A DNA stretch of 64,000 bases from Myxococcota bacterium (GTDB lineage Bacteria; Myxococcota_A; UBA796; UBA2385). Under the pieces are notes generated by a model. That model did not search any database. It had not been told where the DNA came from and was given only the letters and a program-made list of their open reading frames with translations. Positions 1,576 through 34,632 of the stretch are shown in pieces. Positions within the stretch are counted from its first letter, which is position 1; every line of letters begins with the position of its first letter. The DNA lies in assembly GCA_023150805.1 (NCBI GenBank), contig JAKLKF010000017.1:19333-83332 (forward strand), read 5' to 3'. The position numbers and the translations under genes were made by a program.

Positions 1576-3081
1576 ATGTCCACCACCCTGTGCCTGGTCT
1601 CGCTCGCGATGGCCTGCCGGAGCAAGGACGAGCTGGCCTGCGGCCCGGGCACCGTCGAGGTGGACGGCCTGTGCGTGCCGGACGAATCGGCCACCGACTC
1701 CGACTCCGACTCCGACACCGATCCCGGCGCTCGCTGGTCCGGTACGGAGCGCCTGCCTGCCGGTGGCTGCTCCCTTCGCGGGGAGGAGCGCGAGGACCTC
1801 GCCGGGAGGGCCGTGGCGATGGGGGAACTGGACAGAGACGGCCAGGCCGATGTCCTCGTAGGGGAGCCCTTCGCGTGGGCGGACACGGACGACGCGGGCC
1901 AGGTCTGCCTGCTCCAGGAGCCGGTCACGGAGGACGTGGACCTGGGCACCGGCGCACGCGGCATCGAGGGCGATGCGGAGCGCGCCTGCCTGGGCAACGG
2001 CCTGGCAGTGCTGGGCGACGTCAATGGCGACGGGGTGCCAGAGGCGGCGGCCTCGGCTCCCGAGGCCAGCACCGCCAACACCAGCCCCCAGGGACGTGGC
2101 AGCATCTTCATCTCCTCGGACCTGTTGGAGGCTGAGGCCACGGTTGACGCCGTGGCGACCTGGACCGGCGAGGACGACGAGGACGCTGCGGGCAGCGCTG
2201 TCGCCGCCGGGTCGGACCTGACTGGGGACGGCGTGCCGGACCAGGCCATCGGCGCCCTGGGGTGGGGAGGCAGCACCGGGGCCGTCTATGTGTTGGGCCC
2301 GAGCGTGCTCGACGGGGGCTCCCTGGACGGGGCGGACGCGCGCTTCCATCCATTGGATGACGAGCTGTCCGGAGACTGCTTCGGCACCTCCCTGGCGATG
2401 CTGGGCGACCTGGATGGTGAGGGAATCGGCGACCTGGGCGTGGGCAGGGCATCCCACGACAGCGGCGGCGCGGTGGTGGTCTTCCTGGGACCTGCCGCCG
2501 GCGGCCGGGACGCCGCCGACTTCGAAGGCCTGGTGATGGGCAGGGGCGGCGCGATCGGCCTGCACCACCAGGGCCTCGCCGGGCCCGGCGACGTGGACGG
2601 CGATGGCACGGCCGACATCCTGGTCGGCGCGCCCGAGACCCACACCGACGAGGATGACTCCGGCACCCCCTTCCTCATCTCCGGGGCGGCCGCGCTGGAG
2701 GGCACCGACGTCTTGCTGGCTACCGCGACGATCGAGGGCCACATCTACGCCCAGGCCCTCGGCCGGTCGGTCGCCGCGATGGGTGACCAGGACGGAGACG
2801 ACCATGCAGAGGTGCTGATCGGATCCATGGGTGACGACCTGGAGGGGGACTACGGCGGATCAGCCATCCTGTATTACGGACCGGTCAGCGGGACCCTCAC
2901 CCGCGAAGACGCCGACGCTGCCTGGGGTGGCACCACCAACGCCAACGCCGGGGTGTCGCTCGCGGCAGGGCAGGACCTCAACGGCGATCGGTACAGCGAT
3001 CTGGTGATCGGGGCCGAGAGCGCTACCGGTGGCGCCCTGTGGTCCGGCGTGGTCTACGTCGTGCCCGGAATGGCGCCCTGA
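1576..3081 (+). CDS. FG-GAP/integrin-alpha-like repeat lipoprotein
   Basis: Lipobox LVSLAMAC, CGPGTVEVDGLCVP motif, DSDSDSDTD linker, repeated GDVNGDGVPE/GDLDGEGIGD/GDVDGDGTAD FG-GAP motifs; alternative start at 1552. Confidence 0.88.
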   Translation: MSTTLCLVSLAMACRSKDELACGPGTVEVDGLCVPDESATDSDSDSDTDPGARWSGTERLPAGGCSLRGEEREDLAGRAVAMGELDRDGQADVLVGEPFAWADTDDAGQVCLLQEPVTEDVDLGTGARGIEGDAERACLGNGLAVLGDVNGDGVPEAAASAPEASTANTSPQGRGSIFISSDLLEAEATVDAVATWTGEDDEDAAGSAVAAGSDLTGDGVPDQAIGALGWGGSTGAVYVLGPSVLDGGSLDGADARFHPLDDELSGDCFGTSLAMLGDLDGEGIGDLGVGRASHDSGGAVVVFLGPAAGGRDAADFEGLVMGRGGAIGLHHQGLAGPGDVDGDGTADILVGAPETHTDEDDSGTPFLISGAAALEGTDVLLATATIEGHIYAQALGRSVAAMGDQDGDDHAEVLIGSMGDDLEGDYGGSAILYYGPVSGTLTREDADAAWGGTTNANAGVSLAAGQDLNGDRYSDLVIGAESATGGALWSGVVYVVPGMAP

Positions 3082-3095
3082 TCAAGCCGGGAAGC

Positions 3096-4349
3096 TCATC
3101 GGGACGATGGGTCAGCGGCGCTGGGGATCGTGAGCAGCACCTCGCTGCCGTCGAGCACGGTCCAGACGGGATCCCCCCCCGCCAGCCGACGGGTCTCTCG
3201 CAGGATGACCGGCACGCCGTCTCCCTGGGCTTCCATGAAGAAGCCGCGCCCGCTGCCCTGGCCGGCTTCCCCCACGGGCAACTTGACCATGATCGACTTC
3301 ACGGCCTCGTTGCGGGTCGACTGGCGCAGCGCGATGCTCTCGACCGACAGGGTGTTGGGCAGCGGACCCGGGGAGTACAGCTCCAGGCGGTCGTCGAAGA
3401 GGAACAAGCGGATCCGCGAGCCATGGACGGAGTAGTCCCGGTGGACGACCGCGTTGACGATGGCCTCGAACAGGGCGCGCTCGGAGAACTGAGGCACCTC
3501 CGCCCGAGGAGGCCCTTCCTGCACGCTGACCTGCATGTTCCGCCGCGCGAAGGCGTACAAGGCGAGGATCTGCTGGTCGAGGGGGCCCGTGATGTCCGCG
3601 GCGTCGACCTGGTTGTTCGAGTCCTGGACCACGCCCCGGAAGCGCACGGCGCGGGCGCTCGCCCCGGGCAGCCAGGTCTCCGGGTGGGTGCAGCACAAGA
3701 GCAGCCCGGTGACCGTGGCGCGCTCCTGCCCCTCGTCCATGGTCAGGATCTTGCGCTTGTGCAGAGTCCGAACCGGATCTTCGACGGTGGGGTCGCAGAG
3801 TCGGCCCCACAAGCTCGGCTCCAGGTCAACAAGCCGCGTCTCCGGGACCGCCTGCTCGTCGAAGCGGATCAGGCGCGCCTGGCTGCGCTGTTGGAAGAGT
3901 CGCGCCAGCAGCTCGGGGGGCATCTCCCGCTTGCTGCTGCCGATGCGTTGAAAGTAGCCGCCAGGGCTGCGGTGGACGAAGAGGCTGCGGGGCACCTCGA
4001 TCTTGAGCACCGCGCGCAGCTCGCCGAGCGCATCCGGCAGCTCCAGGCGCAGGATGTGTACCCGCAGCGGCGGGGTGACGCTGTCGTGGCAGAGCTCGCG
4101 GACGAAGGTCTCGACCAGGTCCAGCTTGTCGACCGGGATCCCGTCGACCTGCCGGCTCTTGTCGTCGACGCCCAGCAGGCAGACGCCATCGGCGGTGTTG
4201 GCCATCGCGGCCAGCTCGTCGGCGAGGCTTTCCCGTGCGGGTCCGGTCACCTTCTTGCCGGCGAGCGTGACCGCCTTGAGCTCCAGAGCGTTGTCTTCGC
4301 CCAGGCGGATCTTGTCCAGCAGTTCAGGAGCCGAGTCGAACATCCACAC
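3096..4349 (-). CDS. Schlafen/AlbA_2-domain ATP-binding protein (putative transcriptional regulator family)
   Basis: N-terminal ENNALELKAV-like AlbA_2 region and GVDDKSRQVDGIP; ALFEAIVNAVVHRDYSVHGSRIRLFLFDDRLELYSPGPLP is the hallmark of HATPase_c_4-type COG2865 proteins. Confidence 0.85.
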   Translation of the reverse strand: MWMFDSAPELLDKIRLGEDNALELKAVTLAGKKVTGPARESLADELAAMANTADGVCLLGVDDKSRQVDGIPVDKLDLVETFVRELCHDSVTPPLRVHILRLELPDALGELRAVLKIEVPRSLFVHRSPGGYFQRIGSSKREMPPELLARLFQQRSQARLIRFDEQAVPETRLVDLEPSLWGRLCDPTVEDPVRTLHKRKILTMDEGQERATVTGLLLCCTHPETWLPGASARAVRFRGVVQDSNNQVDAADITGPLDQQILALYAFARRNMQVSVQEGPPRAEVPQFSERALFEAIVNAVVHRDYSVHGSRIRLFLFDDRLELYSPGPLPNTLSVESIALRQSTRNEAVKSIMVKLPVGEAGQGSGRGFFMEAQGDGVPVILRETRRLAGGDPVWTVLDGSEVLLTIPSAADPSSR

Positions 4350-7101
4350 CTCCGTGGGCGATCCGGCGGTACCGCTCCCGGAAGGCCTCGGCGCCGCCCT
4401 CCATCACCCGGCAGATCTCGTCGCGCACGTCCTGCTCCTGCAGGCCCCCGGTGCAGACCTGGGTGGCCTGGCCCCCGCGAACGTCCAGCGCGACGACGTG
4501 CTCCGCGTCCCCGTTGACCACGATGTTGGGATTGTGGGTCACGACCAGGACCTGCCGGCGGGACTTGATGCGGCGGAGCTGCTGCACGATGAGATCGTAG
4601 ACGAGCTGGTTGTCCAGGTCGTCTTCGGGCTGGTCCAGCAGGATCGGCTCGTCGCCGTGGGAGAGCAGAAAGGCGAGCAGGGCCGCAGAGCGCTGGCCGG
4701 GGGATCCCTGGGTGATGGGCTGGAAGCCCTTGCGCCGCCCTGCGGGCTGGAAGGACACGAGCAGGGTGTCGCCCGGGAACCAGGCGTCGAGGCGATCCAT
4801 CTGCTCCGGGGGGCGGGCCTGGAGGAAGGTGGCGAAGGTCTTGTGGTTGGCGGTCACTGCGCCCAAGCGGATCCCTTGAAGCCGTGTCTTGAGCAGGTCC
4901 ACGCGGGAGAGCATCGCTGCCTGGAGCTCCAGCCGCTTGTCGGGTGCAGCCTTCTCGAACTCGTCACGGAACTTCCCGACCAGGTCACCGACCAGGGTCC
5001 CCGCCTGGCCCGGCTCGCCGATGTCGCTTCCGAACCGCGTGTCCTCGCAGCCGAGTAGGGACCGGAGTCCGCTGACCACCGAGTCCGGGTCTCCCAGCGG
5101 CACGACCTCGATCCGCACGAGCTGGTTGTCCTTCAAGACCGCCTCCAGGAACTGCGCGCGCTGGGCGCTGAGCTCCAGGCGAAGCGCGCGCAGGCGCGCC
5201 AGGCTCTCTCCGGCCTGGGTCTGCATGGTGGCCAGGCTCAGCCGGGTGCCCTCGAAGCCCTTGAGCTTCTGCTCCAGGAGCTGCCGCTGCTGCACCAGCC
5301 GGCCGTACTCGCTGGGATCGCCGCCCCCCGCGGCCTGGAGGTCCTCGATGAGGCGAGCGTAGGCCGCGTCCACCGCTGCCACCGCTTGCGTCCAGGGTGA
5401 GCCCGCTCGCTCCGCGCTCCACCGGTTCCTGAGCGCCGACGCCCGGTCCGCGAGCGCACGCGCCTCCACGCGGAGGGCGTCGACCTCGGCGCCAAAGCGC
5501 GCCATCGCGGCCGTCACGGCGGCGTCGGCCGGGTCCGCGGGATCGAACACGCTCCCGTCGGCAGGGGCCAGCTCGACCGCCTCGGCGGCCGCGGCCAGGC
5601 CGTTGACCAGTCCGTCCAGCCCCCCGCTCCACTCATCGACGGCGCGGCCCTGGCGGCGGCGGCGCTGCCAGCGCTGGAGCAGGTCGGCGTGGCCTGCCCC
5701 CTCGAAGACGAGGAGCTTGCGCTGGACGTCCTCCAGCTCTCCGCGGACCCGGGGCTCGTCCCCCAGGCTCGCCGCCACCTCGCGCACCTTCGCGCGCAGC
5801 GAGAGGAAGCGGGTCTCCTCGGCGGTCCAGCGCTCCTTCCAGGCACGGAACCCCACCTCGGGGGCTTCGTCGACGATCCGCAGCAGCGCCTCGGGCTCGC
5901 GGGTCAGCTCGTAGACCTGCTTCTGGCTGTAGATGCGCACGGGGAAGCGCTCGGCCACCTGGCCTTCGCTCTTCGACCAGGTGCCGTCGGGCTGCGCTAC
6001 CTCGATGGGCGGTGCGGTCCCGGCGCGGTCCCACTGGATCCGGAAGCGGGCGCCATCCTTGCGGTACACCACGCTGACCTTGGAGGCGTCAGTGAGGATG
6101 CCCCGGCCGCGGTTCTCATATTTCTTGACCAGCTCGCTCCACTCGGTCTTGAGCCCCGCGGGCAGCTCCGTCTCGCGCCGCAGGGCCGCGCGGGCCAGCT
6201 CCAGGATGGAGGACTTGCCGGTGCCCCGGCCGCCGATGATGGCGTTGAGCCAGGGGTTCAGCGTCAAGGTGAACGGTGCGCTCCGGCCGATGTAGCGCGT
6301 GTTCTCGATGGTGATCGACTCCAGGACCAAGGCAGCGTGCTGGTTTGGATCCTGCGCCGTGGTCGGGTTGCAGACGCTCAGGGCGCCGTCCTGGAGGGCC
6401 AGGCGCAGTCCCTCCAGGGTCGGGGCCGTCATCTTGATCCAGGTGCTGTGCGATCCGATGTCGGCGGGGGTGTGGGCGTCGGACGACCAGATCTGCGTAC
6501 ACCTACCCGTGGGTGGCAGGTAGCTCGGAATCGTCCCGTCCACGTACTTGAGCAGGTCGGGATCTCCGTGCTTCACTTCGATGGCAGACACGTCCGGCAA
6601 CCGGAGCAGGTCGCGAAGCGTCCCGCTGGGGCCGATCTCCTTCAGGACCCCGTTCTCCGCGTCGACGTGCGCCAGGATGCACAGGCCGCCCAACTGGCGC
6701 GCCTCGCGCATGGCGTCCTCCACGGACTTCTGGGGCCTGGTCTCCTTCTCGCCCCAGCCCTGGACTGGCAGATCGCACTTTGTCAACAATGCGGCGACCT
6801 GATCGCGTCCCACGGTCGAGTCGAACAGCACGAGCAGATGTACGCCGGGGTACACCGTCAACTCGACGCCGGGGAACAACGCCGCCCGGTTCCCCAACGC
6901 TGTGCGCGCCGGCTCGATGCCGTTGGGGGTGTTGTGGTCGGTGACCGCGACGACCTGCACGCCGCTGGCGACGACGCCCGCTGCCCAGTCGGCGAACGTG
7001 ACCTCGCCCCGCTTGGTGTAGTCATAGGACTCGGGAGTGTGGACATGCAGGTCGCAGCGCCACCAGCGGGCGCCGGGCCAGCTCCAGGCGGTCGGGCTCA
7101 T
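4324..7101 (-). CDS. PHP-domain + SMC-like AAA ATPase (TrlF-like)
   Basis: PHP motifs DLHVHTP, VTDHNTP, HVDAENG, SSDAHTP; Walker A GGRGTGKS, coiled-coil middle, signature SPGQRSAALLAFLL, Walker B PILLDQPEDDLDN, H-loop THNPNIVV. ATG 7101 chosen over 7206. Confidence 0.9.
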   Translation of the reverse strand: MSPTAWSWPGARWWRCDLHVHTPESYDYTKRGEVTFADWAAGVVASGVQVVAVTDHNTPNGIEPARTALGNRAALFPGVELTVYPGVHLLVLFDSTVGRDQVAALLTKCDLPVQGWGEKETRPQKSVEDAMREARQLGGLCILAHVDAENGVLKEIGPSGTLRDLLRLPDVSAIEVKHGDPDLLKYVDGTIPSYLPPTGRCTQIWSSDAHTPADIGSHSTWIKMTAPTLEGLRLALQDGALSVCNPTTAQDPNQHAALVLESITIENTRYIGRSAPFTLTLNPWLNAIIGGRGTGKSSILELARAALRRETELPAGLKTEWSELVKKYENRGRGILTDASKVSVVYRKDGARFRIQWDRAGTAPPIEVAQPDGTWSKSEGQVAERFPVRIYSQKQVYELTREPEALLRIVDEAPEVGFRAWKERWTAEETRFLSLRAKVREVAASLGDEPRVRGELEDVQRKLLVFEGAGHADLLQRWQRRRRQGRAVDEWSGGLDGLVNGLAAAAEAVELAPADGSVFDPADPADAAVTAAMARFGAEVDALRVEARALADRASALRNRWSAERAGSPWTQAVAAVDAAYARLIEDLQAAGGGDPSEYGRLVQQRQLLEQKLKGFEGTRLSLATMQTQAGESLARLRALRLELSAQRAQFLEAVLKDNQLVRIEVVPLGDPDSVVSGLRSLLGCEDTRFGSDIGEPGQAGTLVGDLVGKFRDEFEKAAPDKRLELQAAMLSRVDLLKTRLQGIRLGAVTANHKTFATFLQARPPEQMDRLDAWFPGDTLLVSFQPAGRRKGFQPITQGSPGQRSAALLAFLLSHGDEPILLDQPEDDLDNQLVYDLIVQQLRRIKSRRQVLVVTHNPNIVVNGDAEHVVALDVRGGQATQVCTGGLQEQDVRDEICRVMEGGAEAFRERYRRIAHGGVDVRLGS

Positions 7102-7217
7102 CTCGCCTCCAGGGGCCACCAGCCAGGCAGGGGAAACTTGACTATCAAGGTCGACCGGCCAGAGGACGCCCGCCCACCGTCCCGGGGCCCTATATTGGCC
7201 CGCCACCCGAGGGTCCC

Positions 7218-8422: not shown

Positions 8423-9289
8423 TCACTCGTACATGCGGCGCATCGGATCGCCCGGCTGGACCTGCGCGTCGAAGTCGCGCCCCAGGTCGGACCGCTGCAC
8501 GCGCCGGTGGTAGCTGGCCGGGCTGTCCCCCGTGAATGCACGGAAGGCGTGGATGAAGTGCGACTGGTCGCAGTAGCCGGCCTCGTGCGCGATCCGCCCC
8601 CAGTCCGGCTGCTGGCCGTGCTGGTCGAGCGCCTCGAAGGCGCGCTGGAAGCGCACGACCTGGGAGAACAGGCGCGGCTCGACGCCGACGGCCTGCCGGA
8701 AGCGCCTCAGGAATTGCCGACGGCCGAGCGCGCAGTCGGCCGCCAGCTCCTCGACGGACACGCGGCCGCGAGACTCCAGGATGCGCTCCACCGCCTCGAC
8801 CACCGGCTGGTCGAGCGCCGGCTGGCGCAGGTTCGCCCAGAGGAAGCGCTCTACCGCTGCGACCCGCGCCGCCAGGTCGGGCGCCTGCCGCACCTCGGAC
8901 TCCAGGACCCGACTGGCGACAAAGAGCGAGTCCAGCGCCAGGTTGCAGTCCACCAGCGGAGGGGAAGGAGCCTGCAGGTAGGGCCGCAGGCCCCACGGGT
9001 GGAAGCCCACCATCAGCACACCCAGGCGGCCACGCGCCCGGTAGGACACGGTGCGGGTCTGGAAGCCTGTGAGGGCGAAAGGAGGGCTCTCGCGCGCCGG
9101 ACCGTCGAGCGTGCGCTCATCCGCTGCGTCTCCCCAGGAGACCACGAGCTGGACGTGGGGAACGGGGAGCACCGAGAGCCAGGCGGACTCGGCCAGGCAA
9201 GGAGGGGGAGGAGCCTCCAGCGCGTAGTAGTAGGCCACCGAGCGGGCCAGGTGGGCGGAGGGGCGGAGGAACTCGGCGTGGACGGTCAT
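8423..9289 (-). CDS. AraC-family transcriptional regulator
   Basis: C-terminal double HTH: VSVEELAADCALGRRQFLRRFRQAVGVEPRLFSQVVRFQRAFEAL...WGRIAHEAGYCDQSHFIHAFRAFTGDSPASYHRR. Confidence 0.93.
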   Translation of the reverse strand: MTVHAEFLRPSAHLARSVAYYYALEAPPPPCLAESAWLSVLPVPHVQLVVSWGDAADERTLDGPARESPPFALTGFQTRTVSYRARGRLGVLMVGFHPWGLRPYLQAPSPPLVDCNLALDSLFVASRVLESEVRQAPDLAARVAAVERFLWANLRQPALDQPVVEAVERILESRGRVSVEELAADCALGRRQFLRRFRQAVGVEPRLFSQVVRFQRAFEALDQHGQQPDWGRIAHEAGYCDQSHFIHAFRAFTGDSPASYHRRVQRSDLGRDFDAQVQPGDPMRRMYE

Positions 9290-9450
9290 GGCGCACCCGG
9301 CGGCCGCCAGCTTCCGGCTGGCCCGGCACCGGTCTAATCCCGAGCTTCGGCGCGCATTGGAGGAATGGGACACGGATGCGTCTCGACTCCACAAGAAGGG
9401 TGGTGGTGCGAGCGGTGAGCTTCCGCGAACAACCCCACCCGGAGCCCTCC

Positions 9451-10149
9451 ATGAACGACGCGCGCTTCACCTCTCTCGCCGCGGCCGCCGCCCTGCTCGC
9501 CATGCCGCTGGCCTGGGCCAGCTTCCTGCTCGGCCCGGCCGCCTTCGGCTGGGACTTCGACCTGCTCTTCGACCCCGCGCGAAGCGTCGCCCACCCAGGC
9601 GTCGACAGCGCCCTGGTCCGCTGGGGCTGGGTGCTGGACGTGCTGGGCTACTACTTCCTGCACCTGCCGGCCGTGCTGGTGGTCGCCGCGCGGACCCGGG
9701 CGGTTGCCCCCCTCGCCACCGCCCTGTCCGAGCGCGCCGCACTCGCCTACATGGCGGTCGGCAGCACGGGCGCCGCCATCCTTGCGGGCACCACCACCCA
9801 CTTCGGTCGCTTCGCGGCGGCCACACCCGAGGTCGCGGACATCATCCGCGAGCTGCACGTCACCACCTTCGCGATGGTGGTGGACGGGATCTGGAACATC
9901 CTCACCATGGGCCTGCTGGCCACCTGGCTGCTGGTGGGCGGACACCTGCTCGCCGCGACCTCGCCCTGGCTCGGGAGAGCCATGACGGGCATCGGCCTGC
10001 TGGCCACGCTGGACGTCGTCGGCTGGGTGACGGGCGTGGAGGGTGTCGCCATGGCCGGCCTCTACGGCTACCTGGCGCTCTTCCCGATCTGGGGCGCCGC
10101 CCTTGGAGCGAGCCTGCTGCGAGGGGATGCTCCGGCAGCGACAGCCTGA
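9451..10149 (+). CDS. Multi-pass integral membrane protein
   Basis: Repeated hydrophobic helices; divergent from the AraC regulator. Confidence 0.75.
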   Translation: MNDARFTSLAAAAALLAMPLAWASFLLGPAAFGWDFDLLFDPARSVAHPGVDSALVRWGWVLDVLGYYFLHLPAVLVVAARTRAVAPLATALSERAALAYMAVGSTGAAILAGTTTHFGRFAAATPEVADIIRELHVTTFAMVVDGIWNILTMGLLATWLLVGGHLLAATSPWLGRAMTGIGLLATLDVVGWVTGVEGVAMAGLYGYLALFPIWGAALGASLLRGDAPAATA

Positions 10150-32794: not shown

Positions 32795-34555
32795 TCAGCC
32801 CGCGACCACCTGGTTCCGACCGCCGCGCTTGGCGGCGTACAGCGCGGCGTCGGCGCGGTCGATCACCACCTCCAGGGCCTCGCCGGGGCGGCGAAGGGTG
32901 GTGCCGATGCTCACGGTCACGCGCTGGTCCTGCAGCGGGCCGTCCAGCACCAGCGCCTGGACCTCCGCGCGCAGCCGCTCGGCCAACGCCGCGAGGCCCT
33001 GCGGGTCGAGCCCCACCGCGAACACGGCGATCTCCTCTCCGCCCAGCCGGATCGGCAGGTCGCCGGCCCGCGCCCGGTCGCGGACCGCCTGCCCCACCCG
33101 CCGCAGCACCGCGTCGCCCTGGACGTGGCCCCAGGTGTCGTTGACCCGCTTGAAGTGGTCGATGTCCAGCAGGGCGACCCCGACGTCACCGCCGGTCCCC
33201 CGGTCCTGGAGCTGGAACAGCCGATCGACCGCGTCGTGCATGTAGACCCGGGTGAACAGACCCGTCAGCGGGTCCCGGATGCTGCGCTCGTAGACCTCCT
33301 GGCGTCGTTGGTCCACTTCCCGGAGCACCATCTCGCGCTCGACCGCGATGTGCAGCGGCAGGGCGAGCTGCTCCACGATCAGGCCCAGCGCCTCCAGGTC
33401 GTCGGGGTCCTCCGACATGTCCAGGGACGCGACCGCGGCGATGGTGCCCCGCTCCGGCGTGAACAGAGGCAGCACCACCCGCAGCCCGCCGGGGGACCGC
33501 TCGATGGCGAAGCGCGTGTCCAGCACCGGCCCACCCGGCCCGTGGCGGCGCGCCCAGCCCGACGCGTCCAGGCCCAGGGCCCAGGCGTCGGGGTGCCCGG
33601 CGTCGGCGCGCTCGCCGCGGAACCGGGTCTCGGGCCGGAAGCACACCGCCTGGCCCCCCGCGTCGCGCGCCAGCAGGCGCAGGGAGGTCACGGGCAGGCT
33701 GCGCTGGATGACCTCCAGCAGGCGCCCGGCGATGTCCTGGAAGTCGCGGACCAGGCTCATCGCCTGGGTGATCTCCCGCAGGGTCGCGTTCAGCCGCGAC
33801 AGCCGCAGGATGTCGGTGTCCCGGTCGGCCAGCAGGTACAGGCCGCAGTCCAGGTGGCGGAGGCGCTCGAGCAGCGTGCGGGCCAGGGGCTCGCGCAGGA
33901 TCGACCCGTGCTGGGGCGCGATGGTCTGGAACGGGAGCCGGGCCAGGGTCGCCAGCGAGTAGTCCAGGATGTCTCGGCTGGGCATGTAGTGCTCGTGGAA
34001 GGAGCGCATGCGGTCGAAGTGGGACTCGTCCTCGGCGAACAGGTGGAAGTCGTCGTCGATAGCGCCGAACAGGTCCGAGGAGAACAGGACCCGCGCCTGC
34101 GGGTCGTAGGTGGCGATGGCGCCGGCGAAGTGGGCGTAGGGCGTGAAGACGAAGTGCAGCACGCGGTCCTCCAGCCGCAGGCTCCAGTCGTGCTGGTCCA
34201 CCAGCCAGAACGGCACGGGCAGGTCGTAGTGCTGCAGGAGCATCGCGCTGCGCCAGTGGGTCACGACCCGGGCGTCGGGGCGCCGCCAGGTGGCCAGGAT
34301 GTGGGGCAGGGCGGCCACGATGTCGGGGTCCTGGTGCTGGGCGACGAAGTACCGGACCTGGTCCATGGCCACGACCTGTTCGATCTTCGCCCGCGTCTTC
34401 TCCCAGGTCCGCATCGATCCCGGGTCGATCAGCACGGACTGGTCGCCCTGCTCCACCAGGTAGGCGTGACACTGGAAGGGATCTCCTTCCTGGACGTGGC
34501 CCACCCACCACACACGGGGGGCGAGCGCGATGGGGTGAGACAGGTCCGGCCGCAT
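32795..34555 (-). CDS. Diguanylate cyclase with N-terminal MBL-fold/ODP-like (di-iron) sensor domain
   Basis: QHQDPDIVAALP, YAHFAGAIATYD, SSDLFGA; GGDEF domain with IRLGGEEIAVF and I-site RAGD five residues upstream. Confidence 0.9.
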   Translation of the reverse strand: MRPDLSHPIALAPRVWWVGHVQEGDPFQCHAYLVEQGDQSVLIDPGSMRTWEKTRAKIEQVVAMDQVRYFVAQHQDPDIVAALPHILATWRRPDARVVTHWRSAMLLQHYDLPVPFWLVDQHDWSLRLEDRVLHFVFTPYAHFAGAIATYDPQARVLFSSDLFGAIDDDFHLFAEDESHFDRMRSFHEHYMPSRDILDYSLATLARLPFQTIAPQHGSILREPLARTLLERLRHLDCGLYLLADRDTDILRLSRLNATLREITQAMSLVRDFQDIAGRLLEVIQRSLPVTSLRLLARDAGGQAVCFRPETRFRGERADAGHPDAWALGLDASGWARRHGPGGPVLDTRFAIERSPGGLRVVLPLFTPERGTIAAVASLDMSEDPDDLEALGLIVEQLALPLHIAVEREMVLREVDQRRQEVYERSIRDPLTGLFTRVYMHDAVDRLFQLQDRGTGGDVGVALLDIDHFKRVNDTWGHVQGDAVLRRVGQAVRDRARAGDLPIRLGGEEIAVFAVGLDPQGLAALAERLRAEVQALVLDGPLQDQRVTVSIGTTLRRPGEALEVVIDRADAALYAAKRGGRNQVVAG

Positions 34556-34632
34556 GGACGCCTCCGCCGCTGGGCTCGCCACCGGCATCGGTCCGCGCCC
34601 GCCGCCGGTGCGTCACGAACGGTCACGGCGCC

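Follow-up and report, generated by a model that had tools for sequence, protein, structure and literature searches.

The window analysed here, a stretch of 64,000 nucleotides (nt) from a Myxococcota bacterium (assembly GCA_023150805.1, contig JAKLKF010000017.1, positions 19,333 to 83,332), carries two overlapping genes: gene 1 encodes a TrlF/Ppl-family protein in which a PHP domain is joined to a split SMC/ABC ATPase, and gene 2 a Schlafen-type protein with a GHKL domain. The pairing of the two genes is not accidental, and the pair is co-inherited across many phyla and also on plasmids. Partly by analogy with the experimentally supported anti-phage protein Ppl of Escherichia coli, we give an even chance to the reading that the pair is a two-gene anti-phage module gated by nucleoside triphosphates (NTPs), in which a Ppl-like PHP DNA nuclease is coupled to a Schlafen-type, probably tRNA-cutting, effector or back-up.

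Gene 1 starts with the ATG at 7101, which is preceded by a ribosome-site-like GGAGG (7106–7110, 4 nt 5' of the ATG), and stops at 4324; it codes for 925 residues, the 926 of the initial annotation including the stop codon. Residues are numbered from this ATG, but many comparisons of protein 1 used the translation of 4324–7104, which has one extra leading residue, and numbers taken from them (query numbering) are higher by one. NCBIfam places protein 1 in the TrlF family (NF045780, 536 bits for a cut-off of 350, residues 11–915), and the PADLOC Ppl model (PDLC02208) matches the same residues with 425 bits (E = 1.6e-127). The two overlapping open reading frames (ORFs) and all the PHP and ATPase motifs named in that annotation are indeed present in the sequence. 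Its list of PHP motifs can be extended by the ligands E80 and H88, with which all nine are accounted for (H19, H21, D27, H56, E80, H88, H145, D208, and H210), and in the alignment the set is identical to that of Ppl at all nine positions. In the AlphaFold2 model of protein 1 (mean predicted local distance difference test score, pLDDT, of 87.6), the PHP domain is N-terminal and is accompanied by a split ABC head and a long coiled coil. In Foldseek searches the N-terminus matches EndoQ and the RNase AM PHP domain, and the closest solved folds for the ATPase and coiled coil are those of Wadjet JetC, RecN, and Rad50. The likeness to OLD, RloC, and PrrC suggested initially is not supported, since NCBIfam and fold matches lead instead to TrlF/Ppl and to SMC, RecN, and JetC; the initial annotation also overlooked that a PHP-SMC ATPase is already known as the Ppl anti-phage family. 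The Walker B motif reads D-Q-P in all 87 aligned family members, with Gln at the position where a catalytic Glu is usual. This family-wide substitution is consistent with an ATP-binding switch and suggests that protein 1 depends on binding ATP rather than on hydrolysing it quickly; the expression "ATP-gated" used initially is to be read in the same conditional sense.

In protein 2, Pfam recognizes SLFN_AlbA_2 (E = 3e-14) and HATPase_c_4 (E = 6e-14), the two domains that had been assigned to it in the initial annotation. Foldseek, run on an AlphaFold2 model with a mean pLDDT of 90.5, matches the N-terminal part with SLFN13, SLFN14, SLFN11, SLFN5 and the SAMD9 tRNase domain (probability 1.00), and the C-terminal part with GHKL kinases. 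Residues E18, E23, and D63 (numbered from the GTG at 4349) align with E206, E211, and D249 of SLFN14, forming an acidic triad of the catalytic type; these three residues are invariant in 38 homologues and, together with K25, are conserved throughout the clade to which the window pair belongs (the window clade). Protein 2 probably cuts tRNA or other RNA. The ATG at 4343 is more likely than the GTG at 4349 to be the start of gene 2, because a GGAGG (4349–4353) stands 5 nt before it and most homologues begin at the equivalent position; the overlap with gene 1 would then measure 20 nt, the 26 nt given in the initial annotation being valid for the GTG. Coordinates of both genes and their domains are collected in Table 1.

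Table 1. Features of the gene pair, in positions of the window.
Feature	Position	Strand	Evidence and remarks
Gene 1, TrlF/Ppl-family protein, PHP domain + split SMC/ABC ATPase, 925 residues	4324..7101	minus	ORF, Pfam, NCBIfam, PADLOC, AlphaFold2, Foldseek
PHP domain of gene 1, about residues 10–245	6367..7074	minus	Pfam, alignment with Ppl, Foldseek
Walker A GGRGTGKS, gene 1 residues 290–297	6211..6234	minus	Motif and family alignment
Long coiled coil inserted between the ATPase lobes, about residues 403–656	5134..5895	minus	AlphaFold2 model
Walker B LLDQPEDD of gene 1, Gln for the usual catalytic Glu	4618..4641	minus	Alignment
Gene 1/gene 2 overlap	4324..4349	minus	26 nt from GTG 4349; 20 nt from ATG 4343
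Gene 2, SLFN_AlbA_2 + HATPase_c_4 (GHKL) protein	3096..4349	minus	ORF, Pfam, AlphaFold2, Foldseek; 417 residues from GTG 4349 or 415 from ATG 4343
Schlafen/AlbA_2 nuclease-type domain, gene 2 residues 18–143 (GTG numbering); triad E18/E23/D63, K25	3921..4298	minus	Pfam, PDB alignment, Foldseek
HATPase_c_4/GHKL ATP-binding domain of gene 2; Pfam stretch 310–403, N-box E295-x3-N299 just upstream	3141..3422	minus	Pfam, model

The frequency of the pairing was surveyed in whole-genome samples of three phyla, which contain 54 TrlF loci over the family cut-off. The Schlafen partner lies directly downstream of TrlF in 34 of these (11/15, 17/27, and 6/12 by phylum); one of the paired loci has a gap of 0.3 kb, and a few loci could be assessed only in part because they lie at contig edges. 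Chance adjacency is ruled out by the scarcity of the partner, as protein 2 finds matches at E ≤ 1e-40 in only 31 places in 338 genomes of the phylum. Among the 54 paired loci measured, from all sources, the two genes overlap in 33 and are at most 14 nt apart in the rest, with a single exception. Twelve plasmid records match gene 2, and TrlF is immediately upstream by annotation in nine of them and by homology search in a tenth. One paired plasmid locus (L130) belongs to the soil bacterium Burkholderia thailandensis. Comparison of gene 1 and gene 2 distances by the mirror-tree approach yields r = 0.88 over 55 loci and r = 0.91 in the window clade, the best of 1000 permutations reaching 0.27. 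Part of this correlation is owed to shared species history; the patchy spread of the pair over phyla and plasmids argues for its transfer as a unit. In the window clade, no locus with full-length copies has lost any of the nine PHP ligands, the acidic triad of the Schlafen domain or the GHKL boxes, the only deviation being one Asp/Asn swap in these boxes. Conservation of the pair across genomes and invariance of the PHP ligands, both put forward for checking in the initial annotation, are thus borne out, the latter for the window clade.

Elsewhere the pair is integrated in known defence operons. It is inserted between HmaA-HmaB and HmaC in three loci (L017, L019, and L037, the last with a divergent Schlafen partner), in part on contig L147, and is followed by HmaC in L036. 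In loci of the bacteriophage exclusion system (BREX), to which Hma is related, it stands between PglX and PglZ, with or without a following BrxL (L014 and L026), or precedes PglZ (L031). The proximity of homologues to defence genes that had been anticipated is therefore found in Hma and BREX loci, and the pair also occurs on plasmids. Around the window pair, on the other hand, neither HmaA/B/C nor PglX/PglZ was found among the genes checked, so that the window locus is not an Hma or BREX locus; the flanking genes include those for an M20 peptidase, an FG-GAP protein and an Omp85-like protein, and an AraC gene. In a genome of the same genus the M20 and Omp85 genes are also 5.7 kb apart, and the slot between them contains other genes instead of the pair. 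This slot (L202:240-5850, genome G001, contig C113) is a small variable locus with a DNA_alkylation repair gene, a broken NTPase-like ORF and an uncharacterised gene pair that by eye resembles AbiE (nucleotidyltransferase-like plus winged helix-turn-helix). TrlF exceeds the cut-off in 5 of 60 near relatives and in 15 of 386 genomes of the phylum, a patchiness that would be expected of an exchangeable defence gene. Conjugative plasmids of Klebsiella, Citrobacter, and Enterobacter often carry a solo TrlF with 41% identity to gene 1; the L136 copy adjoins a restriction-modification pair. Phage-encoded copies of the pair are not supported, as gene 2 matches no phage record and gene 1 matches seven only by its C-terminal 13%. 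No RNA element or tRNA was found at the locus of the pair. At a distance from it (32798–34588), the window also encodes a protein in which an ODP-family metallo-beta-lactamase-fold domain is, unusually, fused to a GGDEF diguanylate cyclase.

The mechanism that we favour carries over to protein 1 the NTP inhibition and the 3'-5' exonuclease activity on single-stranded DNA of E. coli Ppl. Gene 1 would encode an SMC/RecN-like ATPase holding a PHP nuclease, and at a normal NTP pool the nucleotides bound in the ATPase and PHP sites would keep protein 1 off. A phage that drains nucleotides and exposes DNA 3' ends would release this inhibition, and the PHP domain would degrade DNA. Gene 2 is probably translationally coupled to gene 1, and its product would be a second nuclease, of the Schlafen type and probably cleaving tRNA or other RNA, whose GHKL domain may bind ATP. 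The two proteins would act together, protein 2 serving as a back-up or shut-down effector that either responds to the signal sensed by protein 1 or is set free by it.

Several observations weigh against this reading. Protein 1 is classed only as a relative of Ppl, not as Ppl proper, because the NF042955 Ppl_antiphage model, which it matches end to end, gives 510.6 bits for an equivalog cut-off of 1000; moreover, its identity with the Ppl annotated on an E. coli plasmid is 29%. No defence island was found around the window pair among the genes checked. In distant paired clades the PHP set and D63 of the partner are eroded, so that two active nucleases are not universal. Close relatives of gene 2 also exist without TrlF: seven of the 14 assessable full-length matches in the phylum have TrlF upstream, and exclusivity of gene 2 for TrlF has to be rejected. 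Finally, solo TrlF lineages persist, in which the partner must be dispensable.

Some loci illustrate this diversity. In the paired clades L108, L111, L112, L114, L107, L123, and L127, the PHP residue H211 (query numbering) and the Schlafen residue D63 are lost together, often with Lys at both positions, and E18/E23 and the GHKL boxes are kept. The paired rows L018, L030, and L117, seemingly devoid of a PHP domain, are truncated at contig edges and do not represent true domain loss. A close relative of gene 2 lies between genes for a NOV_C-domain protein and a SMODS nucleotidyltransferase with no TrlF there (L177:2-3750), which suggests that this Schlafen subfamily has other partners besides TrlF. 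At L027, two Schlafen-GHKL paralogues occur within 10 kb (2029-3777 and 8846-10108), only one of them beside TrlF.

Other explanations differ in the part given to each protein. It is doubtful that gene 1 is the sole effector and that gene 2 encodes a regulator or restrainer, i.e. a nucleic-acid-binding protein of the COG2865 type repressing expression or silencing the Ppl-like nuclease. COG2865-like proteins are commonly annotated as regulators, overlapping downstream genes are often controllers, and solo Ppl works without a partner; however, no helix-turn-helix is detected in the window protein 2 by Pfam or in the model, the triad and K25 conserved in the clade would be needless in a pure binder, and the structural neighbours are Schlafen nucleases. 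We also consider it unlikely that the killer is protein 2, as an abortive tRNase, with protein 1 mainly its sensor and activator, a DNA-end- and NTP-sensing SMC-like ATPase whose PHP domain plays a supporting part. Such a division of labour would fit the distant paired clades, where PHP ligands are partly lost and E18/E23 of the partner mostly kept, and PMC12839542 describes parallels, namely defence ABC ATPases that sense for separate nucleases (PARIS) and the recruitment of Schlafen RNases carrying a minimal histidine kinase to BREX and related loci. Yet no full-length member of the window clade has an incomplete PHP site, it is the homologous PHP domain that acts as the nuclease in Ppl, and many of those distant rows have also lost D63 of the partner. 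A housekeeping role in DNA repair or nucleotide metabolism, which the RecN/Rad50-like fold of protein 1 and the neighbours of the window pair might recall, is very improbable and the least likely explanation, given the patchy presence of TrlF, its occurrence on plasmids, the position of the pair inside Hma and BREX operons, the anti-phage function of the homologue Ppl and the occupation of the slot by other genes in the same genus.

Returning to the favoured two-nuclease module, the phylogeny of the family provides insight into its relation to the solo forms. Pairing is strongly clustered on a tree built from 91 TrlF proteins, with 11 changes against 29 in shuffles. A focused tree, rooted at the midpoint, with support from the SH-like approximate likelihood-ratio test (SH-aLRT) only and with a long Ppl branch (2.35), places Ppl proper and other solo groups (the Enterobacterial-plasmid type, L098/L142, L141/L143, L024, L029, and L120) among paired lineages. 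Because the solo forms are nested in this way, and in view of the mirror-tree result, pairing is likely to be ancestral and the partner to have been lost repeatedly. We tentatively extend this to the proposal, for which we see less than an even chance, that the ancestor of the Ppl clade was a cassette of two nucleases, in which a PHP DNA exonuclease gated by NTPs and a Schlafen tRNase that binds ATP were produced as a coupled pair, acting either alone or as a second line of defence in BREX/Hma operons, and that single-gene Ppl is a reduced descendant without the Schlafen protein. A separate solo clade (L040, L041, L070, L088–L091, L103, L118, and L119) has Y for H57, N for H89 and G, S, D or E for H146 (query numbering); because of these different ligands, the NCBI TrlF family appears to mix proteins of differing PHP chemistry, some of them possibly inactive or altered. 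TrlF-like ATPases that lack both the PHP domain, not by contig truncation, and the Schlafen partner form a monophyletic group (L079, L081–L086, and L116).

If the favoured reading is true, PHP-SMC nucleases such as Ppl and bacterial Schlafen proteins are tied into one module, and the recurrence of GHKL-containing Schlafen proteins in BREX-type loci is explained. Ppl would no longer be a stand-alone oddity but the remnant of a two-effector system, its single gene being what may be left of a two-nuclease defence module. The family-wide Gln in Walker B would offer a ready structural reason for ATP being a holding signal and not a fuel. The question is then raised of whether the partner alters the NTP threshold, phage range or lethality of Ppl.

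As regards known systems, DIP2311 (PDB 3lmm) is the best full-length structural match of protein 2 (E = 2e-18) and also its best sequence match in the PDB; it is an uncharacterised structural-genomics protein with no known link to TrlF. The heads of Wadjet JetC, RecN, and Rad50 resemble the ATPase and coiled coil of protein 1 but are without a PHP domain and have other partners. A BREX survey (PMC12839542) counts at least 1017 taxa in which Schlafen RNases that are fused to a minimal histidine kinase and a winged helix-turn-helix occur close to BREX and related loci. These RNases share with gene 2 the domain pair and the kinds of loci, whereas their C-terminal winged helix-turn-helix is absent from the window protein 2; as far as the main text of that survey was searched, PHP, Ppl, and TrlF are not mentioned. 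A literature search with incomplete coverage of the likely sources found no published description of a PHP-ABC and Schlafen pairing, so that an earlier one is possible. The TrlF family (NF045780), to which protein 1 belongs, is an annotation group of solo and paired lineages with at least one clade of different PHP ligands. The closest comparison is with Ppl (NF042955, PDLC02208; E. coli plasmid NZ_CP085624, WP_015059139), for which a sequence search of a PDB copy gave no solved structure. A review describes E. coli Ppl as a single-gene 3'-5' exonuclease acting on single-stranded DNA; NTPs occupying the PHP and NTPase domains inhibit it, and it becomes active when nucleotides are depleted and 3'-OH ends are present (PMC12904381). 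Protein 1 has the same architecture over residues 11–915 and is identical to Ppl at every aligned catalytic position, i.e. the nine PHP ligands, Walker A, the signature, the D-Q-P-E Walker B and the THN motif. On the other hand, Ppl consists of one gene, whereas gene 1 is overlapped by a conserved Schlafen-GHKL gene and does not form a single-gene system. The Ppl-type PHP-SMC ATPase alone is already known as an anti-phage family; what sets the window pair apart from Ppl is the overlapping Schlafen partner.

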